DNA of 64,000 bases. Source: Streptacidiphilus rugosus AM-16 (lineage in GTDB: Bacteria > Actinomycetota > Actinomycetes > Streptomycetales > Streptomycetaceae). A program made the position numbers and the translations under genes. The stretch is taken from the NCBI RefSeq assembly GCF_000744655.1, contig NZ_JQMJ01000004.1:5084001-5148000 (forward strand). Reading direction: 5' to 3'. The notes below the pieces were generated by a model. It did not search any database and was not told the origin of the DNA. It saw nothing but the letters and a program-made list of their open reading frames with translations. Positions within the stretch are counted from its first letter, which is position 1, and each line of letters starts with the position of its first letter. Of this stretch, positions 16,220 through 42,209 are shown in pieces.

Positions 16220-16391
16220 GACCCACCGGACGCGGCCCAGGGCGCGTCCCGCCTCGCGTGAACGGGCGGCCGACCACGCCTGACGCCCTTCGGCAGCAAT
16301 GGCTCCAGCGGCGCTCACTGGCCGTCCGTCAGATCTTCCCGCGCGACAAGAAGTGATCACCACGCATCTTGATCCGCTCCTGGAACAGACC

Positions 16392-19598: not shown

Positions 19599-20323
19599 AT
19601 GGGGACGAGTGCCGAGCACGGCGGGAGCGCCCACGACGGGACGCACGCACCGATGGTCGAGGAGATCACCGACTTCGAGGTGCTGGAGATCGCGCTGCGC
19701 GAGCTGGCCATCGAGAAGGGGCTGTTCACGGCGGAGGATCACCGCCACTACACGGAGTGGGTCGAGCAGATGGGGCCGGCCCCGCCGCCCGGCTGGTGGC
19801 CAGGGCGTGGCTCGACCCGGCCTTCAAGGAGCTGGCGCTGACGGACGCGCTCGCCGCCAGTCGGGAGGTCGGAGTCGACTGGCTGCACGACCCGCCGACC
19901 GGTTTCGGGGCTCCGAGCGACTTCACGCTGCTGCACGTGCTGGAGGACACCCCCACGCTGCACCACGTGGTCGTGTGCACGCTGTGCTCCTGCTATCCGC
20001 GCCCGATCCTCGGCAACTCCCCCGAGTGGTACCGGACGCCGAACTACCGTCGCCGCATCGTGCGCTGGCCCCGCCAGGTCCTGGCCGAGTTCGGCCTTCA
20101 CCTTCCCGAGGACGTCGAGGTCCGGGTCGAGGACTCCAACTCCAAGCACAGGTTCCTCGTGCTGCCGGTCCGCCCGGAGGGAACGGAGGGCTGGAGCGAG
20201 GACCAGCTCGCCGAGATCGTCACCCGCGACTGCATGATCGGCGTCGCCCTCCCCCGGCCCGGCGTGACGTCGAACGCGCCTCGCCCCGAACACGCCGCCG
20301 CCCGGCCGATCGCCGGCCACTGA
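19599..20323 (+). pseudogene. Nitrile hydratase alpha-type catalytic subunit, frameshifted
   Basis: The metal-binding subunit is encoded in two frames. The first (19599 to about 19783) reads MGTSAEHGG..., EIALRELAIEKGLFTAEDHRHYTEWVEQMGPA. The second (about 19784-20323) reads AARLVARAWLDPAFKELAL..., then the metal claw CTLCSC (19976-19993, Thr as in non-corrin cobalt enzymes), SEWYRTPNYRRRIVRWPR and LPVRPEGTEGWSEDQLAEIVTRDCMIG. Restoring one C in the CCCC run at 19780-19783 joins both into one protein of about 241 residues. So this is either a true one-base deletion or a homopolymer sequencing error. A ribosome site (GGAG...GAGG) precedes ATG 19599. If the break is real, the enzyme is inactive. 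Confidence 0.85.
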
Positions 20324-39437: not shown

Positions 39438-39591
39438 CGGGCCACCCTTCCGGTTCACAGGCTTGGACTGCGTTCAATATAGCCCGCGGACCAGGTCAGG
39501 AAGAGTGGTGCGAGAGCCCGCCCCCGGGCCCGACCGTAGCGGCCCCGGGGATTCGGTACCGGTTTCCGGCACCCTCAACTATGTTGCTGCC

Positions 39592-40839
39592 GTGGACCAA
39601 CTGATCGCGGGGGATCCGGCATCCATCGGCCCGTACCGACTCATCGCACGGCTGGGCGCAGGCGGCATGGGCCTGGTGTACCTGGGCCGTTCCGACGTCG
39701 GACGGACCGTCGCCGTGAAGGTGGTCCAGGCCGAACACGCCCAGCACCCCGAGTTCCGCAGCAGGTTCGCCCGCGAGGTGGAGGCCGCCCGACGCGTGGG
39801 CGGGCACTGGACCGCCGCCGTGCTCGACGCGGACACGGGTGCGGCCACCCCCTGGGTGGCGACGCAGTACATCCCCGGACCCGACCTGCAGACGGTGGTG
39901 AAGAAGGACTTCGGCCCGCTGCCCGAGCACTCGGTCCGGGTCCTCGCCAACCGTCTGGCCCTGGCCCTCCAGGCCGTGCACGCCGCGGGCCTGGTCCACC
40001 GCGACCTGAAGCCGTCCAACGTCCTGGTCACCGTCGACGGACCGCGCGTCATCGACTTCGGGATCGCCCGGGCGATGGACACCCTGCTCGGCACCAGCCT
40101 GGCGACCAGCACCGGCATGCTGCTCGGCTCGCCGGGCTTCATGTCCCCCGAGCAGGTGCGCGGCCTCGAACTCACCGGCGCGAGCGACGTGTTCTGCCTC
40201 GGCGCGGTGCTCGTCCACGCGGCCACCGGCCGCCTGCTCTTCGGCGCGGGCAGCAGCGGGCTCAACGCCCACCTGTTCCGGATCGCGGAGGAGGAGGCGG
40301 ACCTGTCCGGGGTGCCGGACTCGCTGGTCGGCCTGGTCGCCGAGTGCCTGCGCAAGGACCCGGCCGAGCGGCCGACCCCGCAGCAGATCGCCGACCGGAC
40401 CGCGCACGCGACGGCGGACGAGGAGTGGCTCCCCGGTCCCGTGCTGGCCCAACTGGGGAGGCATGCCGCCCAGTTGCTTGACTTCGCGCCCGCCGCGCCA
40501 CCCACCGCGCCACCTGCGGACGCGCCCGCCGCGCCGGTCGTGCCGCCGCAGCACCAGCCCGTCCCGCCGCAGCTCCAACCGCAGGAGCCCCTGCGCCTGC
40601 CGCAGGCGCAGCCGCTGGTCCCGGACCACTACGGGCATCTGCCGCAGCCCTCGCCCCAGCCGTGGGCCGCGCCGCCCGGCCCCCGCCGCAGGCGCCGCCG
40701 GCGGGACAGTTCGGGGGGCTACCCGGCCAGTACCCGCGGGCCTGGTCCGGGGCCGAGGCACAGGTCGGGCCCGAGGACGGGCCGCCGCCGCATCCGCGCC
40801 GCTGGGGCGGCCTCCTGGTGGTCGCGCTGGCCCAGCTGA
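39592..40839 (+). CDS. Ser/Thr protein kinase, C-terminus probably frameshifted
   Basis: A 415-residue open frame with a complete Hanks kinase domain: glycine loop LGAGGMGLVYLG, Lys43 (VAVKVV), HRDLKPSN (Asp138, Asn143), DFG Asp155, SPEQ. After about residue 280 comes a Pro/Gln linker (PPQHQPVPPQLQPQE). From about 40683 the frame turns into Arg/Gly/Ser-rich sequence without character, while another frame continues the Pro-rich linker into an MFS transporter (next entry). Restoring one C in the CCCCC run at 40680-40684 would fuse kinase and transporter into one protein of about 872 residues. GTG 39592 has no ribosome site; TATGTT lies just upstream, so the transcript may be leaderless. Confidence 0.85.
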   Translation: MDQLIAGDPASIGPYRLIARLGAGGMGLVYLGRSDVGRTVAVKVVQAEHAQHPEFRSRFAREVEAARRVGGHWTAAVLDADTGAATPWVATQYIPGPDLQTVVKKDFGPLPEHSVRVLANRLALALQAVHAAGLVHRDLKPSNVLVTVDGPRVIDFGIARAMDTLLGTSLATSTGMLLGSPGFMSPEQVRGLELTGASDVFCLGAVLVHAATGRLLFGAGSSGLNAHLFRIAEEEADLSGVPDSLVGLVAECLRKDPAERPTPQQIADRTAHATADEEWLPGPVLAQLGRHAAQLLDFAPAAPPTAPPADAPAAPVVPPQHQPVPPQLQPQEPLRLPQAQPLVPDHYGHLPQPSPQPWAAPPGPRRRRRRRDSSGGYPASTRGPGPGPRHRSGPRTGRRRIRAAGAASWWSRWPS

Positions 40840-42209
40840 CGGTGCTCGCGGGCGCGACCGCCTCCAACATCGCCGTTCCGACCATCGTCCGCGATCTGCA
40901 CATGTCCAGCGGCGACACGGCGCTGGTGTCCACCCTCTACCTGCTCGGCTTCGGCGCCCTGCTCTTCGCGGGAGGGCACGTCGCGGACCACGTCGGACGC
41001 CGGACCACCCTGGTCGTCGGGCTGCTCGGCTTCGCCCTGGCCTCCGCGATCGCCGGACTGGCCCCCGGCTTCCCGGTCCTGGCCGGCGCCCGGCTGCTGC
41101 AGGGAGGTGCGGCGGCGCTGGTCAGCGCGGCCGGGCTCGCCCTGGTGAGCACCGGATTCACCGATCCGAAGGAGCGGGGCCGGGCCTTCGCGGTCTACGG
41201 CGCGATCGTCGCGGGCGGCTCGACCCTGGGGCTGCTCACCGGCGGCTGGCTGGTGGAAGAGCTCAGCTGGCGCATGTGCTTCTTCGTCGCGGTCCCGGTC
41301 GCCGCCGTCGCCGTGGTCGGCGCGTTCACCCTGCTGCCGGAACACCGGGGCCCATCCGGCGTCCGCCCGGATCCGGTCGGCCTGCTGTTGGGCTGCCTCG
41401 GGCTCGCCGCCGTCCTGGGCGGCGTCAACCAGGCGCCCTCGCACGGCTGGACCGCCCCGCTCACTCTCGTCCCCACCGCGATCGGCGTCGCCCTGCTCGC
41501 GGGCCTGGCGTGCTGGCTGACGGCGTCGGGCGGATCCTCCATGCTGCCCCATCCGTTCCGGGACAGGAACCGCGTCGGCTCCCTGCTCGCCCTCACGCTC
41601 GCGGGCGCGGGCCTGCTGGTCCTGCTCACCGCCCTGACGTACTGCCTGCAGCAGACGTTCGGCTACACCCTGCTGGGAACCGGAGCCGCCTTCCTGCCGA
41701 TGGTCGCCGCGATCACGGCGGCCGCCGCCCTCGGATCGACCGGACCGCTCCGCGGCCTGGCCCCCGGATTCACCGTCGCGGGGGGTCTGCTGCTCGCAGC
41801 GATCGGGACGGCGCTGCTGACCACCCTCCAGCCGCAGACCGGCTACGTCACCGGGATACTGCCCGGCCTGGTCCTGGCGGGCCTCGGCATCGGCCTGGCC
41901 TGGCCGTCGATCCTCGCGACGGCGACCGCCGGAAGCCCCGACCGCTTCGCCGGAGCGCTCGGGGCGACCGTGACCGCCACCCAGCAACTCGGCACGGCGC
42001 TCGGCGCGGCCTTCTTCGCCGCCTACCTGACCGGCCGGACCAGGGACCTGAACGGGCACCTGAACCAGGTCCCGACCCCGAGCGCGATCCCGAGACTCTT
42101 CCTCCAGTTCTGCACCGACGCCCTCTGGTGGGCGACGGGCGGCCTGGTGCTCGCCGCCGTCCTCGCCGCCGTGCTGGCCACCGGCAGGAGCGGTAGGGCC
42201 GACTCCTGA
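40662..42209 (+). CDS. MFS exporter, DHA2/EmrB-QacA type, probably C-terminal part of kinase fusion
   Basis: A 515-codon open frame. Its first ~50 residues are a Pro/Gly linker (RPPPQAPPAGQFGG..., VGPEDGPPPHPRR) that looks like the continuation of the kinase linker rather than a free N-terminus. Then come 14 membrane helices, with the loop 2-3 motif GGHVADHVGRRTTLV and the motif-C-type helix GAIVAGGSTLGLLTGGWLVEELSWRMCF. These transporters are proton-drug antiporters. No ribosome site precedes GTG 40662, the first possible start, which lies inside the kinase frame. Either the genes overlap by 178 bp and are coupled, or one protein is split by a lost base. Confidence 0.85.
   Translation: MGRAARPPPQAPPAGQFGGLPGQYPRAWSGAEAQVGPEDGPPPHPRRWGGLLVVALAQLTVLAGATASNIAVPTIVRDLHMSSGDTALVSTLYLLGFGALLFAGGHVADHVGRRTTLVVGLLGFALASAIAGLAPGFPVLAGARLLQGGAAALVSAAGLALVSTGFTDPKERGRAFAVYGAIVAGGSTLGLLTGGWLVEELSWRMCFFVAVPVAAVAVVGAFTLLPEHRGPSGVRPDPVGLLLGCLGLAAVLGGVNQAPSHGWTAPLTLVPTAIGVALLAGLACWLTASGGSSMLPHPFRDRNRVGSLLALTLAGAGLLVLLTALTYCLQQTFGYTLLGTGAAFLPMVAAITAAAALGSTGPLRGLAPGFTVAGGLLLAAIGTALLTTLQPQTGYVTGILPGLVLAGLGIGLAWPSILATATAGSPDRFAGALGATVTATQQLGTALGAAFFAAYLTGRTRDLNGHLNQVPTPSAIPRLFLQFCTDALWWATGGLVLAAVLAAVLATGRSGRADS

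Follow-up and report, generated by a model that had tools for sequence, protein, structure and literature searches.

The 64,000-nucleotide stretch of the Streptacidiphilus rugosus AM-16 genome analysed here (the window, positions 5,084,001 to 5,148,000 of contig NZ_JQMJ01000004.1 in assembly GCF_000744655.1) contains, on its forward strand between positions 39592 and 42209, a Ser/Thr protein kinase frame that passes through a Pro/Gln-rich linker into the frame of a membrane protein of the major facilitator superfamily (MFS). On balance, this locus is probably a frame-broken copy of a family of kinase-linker-MFS proteins, whose MFS half is a sensor derived from a transporter. As judged from genome comparison, the fusion of the two predicted domains is a real and evolutionarily conserved protein architecture. 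With the kinase of an intact relative (L014) as query and a group threshold of E 1e-135, a fusion-type kinase was found in 33 (window included) of 394 genomes from the Streptomycetaceae, the family of the window, and in 4 of the 14 genomes of its own genus, the boundary of the group being marked by identities of at least 74% inside it versus at most 66% for the next kinases (in a sample of 150). Among the 32 other loci (one of the 32, L107, coincides with L013 of Streptomyces xanthophaeus, and the trees include this locus a single time), the MFS part lies in the open frame of the kinase in 29 according to tblastn, and in 30 with the addition of L123, in which Pfam recognizes Pkinase and MFS_1 (E 1.9e-16) in a single chain. 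The window copy is the only one of the 33 whose MFS part is found in a different frame. For example, genome G003, of the same genus, carries an 889-codon open frame with both kinase and MFS domains.

Homologues that always consist of two separate genes were the finding that the initial annotation had named as fatal to its proposal of a single protein split by one base, and the opposite arrangement was observed: besides the 30 of 32 loci with both domains in one frame, a scan of contigs with the MFS half returned 32 candidate stretches, of which five (one of them L013, already among the 32 loci as L107) were confirmed as relatives, all from Streptomyces and all five with a kinase in the same frame. 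No spread outside the family was seen in a class-wide sample of 394 genomes, which yielded three matches at E 1e-125, all within the family of the window; a survey of 101 genomes with PF07690 returned the strongest MFS matches only, and was uninformative. A plasmid of Streptomyces sp. NBC_00212 (NZ_CP108116.1; L131, 9001-10689) also encodes the kinase together with the first part of the MFS domain, and its product (WP_331721238.1), annotated 'MFS transporter', belongs to the only annotated record found with this kinase. NCBI may also use the name 'bifunctional kinase/MFS transporter'.

In the window, the kinase frame begins with GTG at position 39592 and extends over 415 residues to its own stop (39592-40839). 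It contains a Pkinase domain (Pfam PF00069, residues 15-268, positions 39634-40395; E 1.8e-36, 126.3 bits against a cut-off of 31.7), and the kinase region shares 81% identity with L014. The Pro/Gln-rich linker, which starts at about residue 299 of the kinase frame, is encoded partly in each frame (40486-40790), and intact homologues also have Pro-rich linkers. The MFS frame, one step back relative to the kinase frame, comprises 515 residues from a GTG at 40662 (40662-42209), is open back to 40482, and contains an MFS_1 match (Pfam, residues 55-449 counted from this GTG, positions 40824-42008; E 1.6e-40, 139.5 bits against a cut-off of 33.4). A kinase frame with a Pro/Gln linker that continues in another frame into a transporter, as first described, is thus an accurate account of the locus.

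The position of the frame change can be narrowed down by coding statistics. A codon model trained on the source genome gives 40660 as the best switch point, with a 95% interval of 40648-40730 for a one-step change, and over positions 40482-40839 a model with a frame switch gains 31.6 nats over the kinase frame alone and 50.1 nats over the MFS frame alone; a frame-switch scan with a hidden Markov model places the switch at 40659, and the alignment of the intact relative L014 to the window falls into two parts, one in frame +1 and the other in frame +3. The run of five C at 40680-40684, where one extra base had been proposed to restore the frame, lies inside the interval, yet coding statistics do not single it out, and the window has about two runs of at least five C or G per kb. 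No ribosome site is visible by eye upstream of the MFS frame at the window locus, as had also been claimed, but this is weak evidence, since the kinase start itself looks leaderless and a missing ribosome site before the MFS frame therefore says little.

The kinase half is, by its motifs, a Hanks-type Ser/Thr kinase, predicted to be cytoplasmic: VAVK, HRDLKPSN and DFG are present in all 35 rows of the alignment, that of the window included. The NCBIfam AfsK model (NF053615) matches residues 1-409 with 301.4 bits, below its equivalog cut-off of 1300. In the kinase tree, the fused kinases cluster together (35 rows, SH-aLRT 98), and the adjacent sister kinases L127 and L128 are ectodomain kinases, in which the kinase is followed by one predicted transmembrane segment (TM) and an extracellular stretch. 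No MFS match was obtained for L127 and L128, and their extracellular domain has no Pfam match at E 0.001. Similarly, 19 paralogous kinases (the best-scoring outside the group, all included in the kinase tree) have one to three hydropathy-predicted TMs after the kinase domain. Given these membrane segments in the paralogues, the MFS domain occupies the usual position of a membrane sensor.

As regards the MFS half, the nearest solved structure by sequence is that of EfpA (E 5.6e-49, residues 53-499 of 515), and 12 hydropathy windows were detected in the window copy (14 helices are expected of DHA2 exporters); its score with the DHA2 efflux model TIGR00711 is 143.6 bits, under the cut-off of 230.2. 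A structure model of L014 (AlphaFold2, four-row alignment) had a mean predicted local distance difference test score of 35.9, which is too poor, and it was not used. In QacA, the TM1 residue D34 contacts R114 and Y63, according to an excerpt of PMC10425836. The corresponding three sites (acid-Tyr-Arg) fall on positions 21, 50 and 101 of L014 when numbering starts at HPRRWW; QacA being absent from the alignment, they were identified by their identical spacing (29 and 80 residues) together with the conserved TM1 motif. Unfused paralogues have D-Y-R in 33 of 34 cases, and the 34th (L005) is gapped at two of the three sites because it is itself frame-broken. Among the fused copies, acid-Tyr-Arg is kept in 14 of 35 and D-Y-R in 8 of 35, and the TM1 acid is missing in 19 of 35, versus none of the 33 unfused copies with a letter at this site. 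The window copy reads G-Y-R, with Gly at 40851-40853, the TM1 site taken as equivalent to QacA D34 in the alignments and occupied by Asp in the unfused paralogues (position checked). The putative coupling site has thus been lost in most fused copies. In the initial annotation, the MFS half had been called a drug exporter of the EmrB/QacA type: the similarity to such exporters is borne out, and drug export is the weaker part of the claim, with the TM1 acid absent and the TIGR00711 score too low.

The MFS part has also been shortened in some members of the family. Full-length versions comprise 469-485 codons (three copies), whereas L113, L116 and L119 retain 252-292 codons and lack the C-terminal part, and the plasmid-borne WP_331721238.1 retains 189. 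The shortened L113 and L116 pair as sisters in the kinase tree, and the shortening thus seems to have been inherited through a lineage split. Elsewhere, an unfused MFS match (G013:C1:834215-835645) contains one in-frame TGA.

The two halves of the protein have evolved at very different rates. Within the same gene, the rate of non-synonymous substitution (dN) of the MFS part is 4.3-16.8 times that of the kinase part (11 pairs). Relative to the synonymous rate (dS), dN/dS reaches 0.35-1.10 for the MFS part in nine close fused pairs (MFS dS up to 0.27), 0.04-0.22 for the fused kinases, and 0.06-0.32 for unfused MFS domains in 11 rows of pairs that are at least 83% identical (two rows repeat, as L003 = L022). 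The pairs L113-L116 (0.64) and L120-L125 (0.98) fall outside the close pairs, with dS near 0.4, and L121-L122 has no MFS value. In an unrooted MFS tree that included 17 of the 34 unfused loci, all fused MFS domains lie on one side of a branch versus the 17 unfused paralogues (support 100). Several small subgroups recur, by eye, in both the kinase and the MFS trees, as expected if the two halves were inherited together, while the window and L119 are on long branches and are placed differently in the two trees.

The gene looks to be expressed from a leaderless-type promoter, to go by the sequence before its start. A -10-like TANNNT box is found 6-8 nucleotides before the GTG in 33 of the 37 fusion and sister loci, including the window, where it reads TATGTT (39580-39585, 6 nucleotides upstream of the GTG; position checked). 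At spacings of 4-9 nucleotides, TANNNT is met at 286 of 77705 background positions, and among 242 other predicted gene starts 15 have such a box. In several of the 37 loci, similar stretches seen by eye in the 60 nucleotides before the GTG reach further upstream. The kinase-MFS gene otherwise seems to travel alone: no conserved neighbours were found, the largest neighbour family being present in 4 of 37 loci, where genes were called with a simple gene finder and grouped into families if 35% identical along 60% of their length, a procedure by which weak sharing could be missed. A function deduced from the flanking IclR regulator and 4-hydroxybenzoate 3-monooxygenase was considered and rejected, neither family being shared with another locus; as neighbours are not conserved, the function of the fusion should not be inferred from this regulator or hydroxylase.

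How might such a protein work? If the MFS half is a sensor, it would bind a small molecule, and either its occupancy or its rocking movement would be relayed by the linker to control the kinase, whose phosphorylation target would be common to the species; transport may persist in the minority of copies that keep the acid-Tyr-Arg site. Transporter-like sensors are known in other systems, such as UhpC and the yeast Snf3/Rgt2. Several points weigh against a sensor. Motif A is largely kept in the fused copies (Asp in 35 of 35, the first Arg in 30 of 35), which speaks either for a preserved fold or for transport, and together with an MFS part in frame in most genomes it makes real transport possible. 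The count of 14 copies in 35 with acid-Tyr-Arg depends on a column in which L123, L126, L129 and L130, the copies that diverge most, may have been wrongly aligned, and the 34 unfused controls were chosen by similarity to the MFS domain of L014 and come from a single genus. Codon bias makes absolute dN/dS values too high, and unfused pairs of 62-77% identity reach 0.43-0.79 at dS values of 0.32-0.48 that are probably saturated, so that only the close pairs and the within-gene comparison count. Rapid change of the MFS part could moreover stem from a relaxation of constraint or from shifts in substrate instead of from sensing, and the MFS tree, being unrooted, allows a single fusion event without proving it.

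The main rival, which we consider rather unlikely for the family and possible for the members keeping the acid-Tyr-Arg site, is a self-regulated exporter: the MFS half would export a metabolite or drug, the kinase would gate this transporter by adding phosphate to it or to the linker, and fast evolution would follow changing substrates. The MFS_1 match, the similarity to EfpA, QacA and EmrB, the retention of motif A and the 14 copies with an intact acid-Tyr-Arg site all fit such an exporter, but the TM1 acid is absent from 19 of the 35 fused copies, including that of the window, and from none of the 33 unfused ones with a letter at this site; QacA D34, along with E407, was deemed essential for every substrate type in the excerpt cited above (PMC10425836). 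Shortened MFS forms and the lack of a conserved neighbour such as a biosynthetic cluster (37 loci) do not favour an exporter either. That the locus merely consists of two separate genes overlapping by chance is scarcely credible: the GTG at 40662 does open the MFS frame, but this start would fall inside the linker of the kinase frame, has no visible ribosome site, and has to be set against the 30 one-frame fusions among 32 homologues.

Is the frame break, then, a property of the strain or of its assembly? A one-base error in the assembly is quite probable, and the living strain would in that case probably make the fused protein. Two other genes of the assembly are broken as well. The alpha chain of a nitrile hydratase (window positions 19632-20311) is split between frames at about 19772, with an intact relative (G054, L174) aligning in frame +3 and then +2, and in L005 (G000:C4:5868118-5869529), which encodes an unfused DHA2 exporter of this genome, the frame breaks within motif A, at a run of G where L017, L018 and L030 are intact. 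All three breaks go one frame step back and lie in G/C-rich stretches, as does nearly the whole genome. Because the two additional genes lose their frame in this direction too, an erroneous base call is more probable than a programmed shift. The beta chain of the nitrile hydratase is encoded directly upstream of the split alpha chain in the window.

Weighing against an assembly error, the frame-switch scan, which found 34 of 48 simulated indels, returned four candidates in 584 kb (the focal one included) versus two in 359 kb of G003, and with such a similar rate the assembly is not plainly error-ridden. Of the four candidates, the focal locus and the hydratase are breaks, and L133 is, by eye, an ordinary neighbouring gene start. 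The fourth, in L140 near position 16275, is a putative switch between a regulator-like N-terminal part (by eye) and an AAA/TPR part. The second choice for the break is a true inactivating mutation, an unlikely but serious alternative, after which the sole product in this strain would be a soluble kinase that ends in an Arg-rich tail, the MFS half being dead or starting to decay. Decay would fit the state of the window MFS part, in which 55 of the 69 columns conserved across the family are retained (third from the bottom among 32, with a median of 0.955), and the long branches of the window copy (0.16 for the kinase, 0.73 for the MFS part) as well as a frequency of frame switches that does not clearly exceed the one in G003 point the same way. 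On the other hand, the G+C content at third codon positions is still normal in both halves (0.934 and 0.935), the 515 codons of the MFS frame contain neither a stop nor a further break, and the two other broken genes share the direction of the shift. Programmed -1 ribosomal frameshifting, by which the present sequence would yield the fusion or both products, could make use of the C run in the switch interval as a site of slippage and would account for an MFS frame with no visible start signal of its own. The canonical -1 slippery site is X-XXY-YYZ, which is not what the junction reads in the kinase frame. The 100 nucleotides downstream (40686-40785) fold no better than shuffled sequences (z -0.11), and 30 of the 32 other copies, with their MFS part in the kinase frame, need no shift; with such homologues and such a fold, programmed frameshifting was rejected as very improbable.

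Among described systems, the closest by name is the transport class TC 2.A.1.34, Sensor Kinase-MFS Fusion (SK-MFS), listed in a table of PMC3924187 with one member from Streptomyces coelicolor and 'unknown' as substrate. Going by its name, this class also joins a kinase to an MFS protein, the putative likeness being drawn from this table entry, which gives neither the kinase type nor the order of the domains. Transporter-kinase fusions are therefore known as a kind, and the present family is a variant rather than something categorically new; among the open-access papers listed, mostly judged by titles and the beginnings of abstracts, none was seen to describe a Ser/Thr kinase fused to an MFS domain, and the nearest item was the table entry of PMC3924187. 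A precedent for transporter and kinase in one chain is CbrA of Pseudomonas, an SLC5 transporter joined to a histidine kinase and called a 'transceptor', which transports histidine and acts as a kinase, according to excerpts of PMC7096432 and PMC13022988. Its transporter domain appears to modulate the kinase (excerpts of PMC7096432, PMC13022988 and PMC7918813). Transporter-type and kinase domains likewise share one frame in 30 of the 32 homologues of the window locus, the frame being broken in the assembly of the window. CbrA differs in its composition and order (SLC5, STAC, PAS and histidine kinase, with the transporter first, as opposed to a Ser/Thr kinase first, followed by an MFS membrane part), and in that it transports histidine, whereas transport by the present family is hypothetical.

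The family shares a kinase domain and a Pro-rich linker with AfsK-like and other membrane-bound Hanks-type kinases of Streptomyces, but its window member scores far below the AfsK cut-off, and the paralogues end in one to three predicted TMs instead of an MFS domain. The DHA2 exporters EfpA, QacA and EmrB are similar along nearly the whole MFS domain; fusion to a kinase, loss of acid-Tyr-Arg in 21 of 35 copies and the shortening of some copies set the family apart from them. Bacterial Ser/Thr kinases tied to transport-related domains have also been described in PMC1262709, in the sections considered here, with a solute-binding domain in S. coelicolor and a domain that its authors termed MalT-like in M. 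tuberculosis. The likeness is that of a kinase linked to a transport-related domain; the terms 'major facilitator', 'MFS' and 'permease' are absent from the main text of PMC1262709, and no kinase with an MFS domain is found there.

Taken together, these kinases may tentatively be viewed as receptor kinases of the Streptomycetaceae that have captured a drug-exporter fold, in which proton coupling has mostly been lost, diversification is fast beneath a kinase that stays conserved, and the MFS part has shrunk to 40-60% of its length in several lineages, on the way from an exporter to a pure receptor. To our knowledge, the ligands of most bacterial Ser/Thr receptor kinases are unknown, and a kinase with a sensor of transporter fold would offer a direct route to the ligand and to the way in which a rocking membrane protein controls a kinase. 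There is also a consequence for annotation, as the plasmid record names a kinase-MFS fusion plainly 'MFS transporter', its name leaving the kinase unmentioned. Finally, the shortened forms, together with the copies that have lost the coupling site, would represent natural stages in the transition of a transporter into a receptor.

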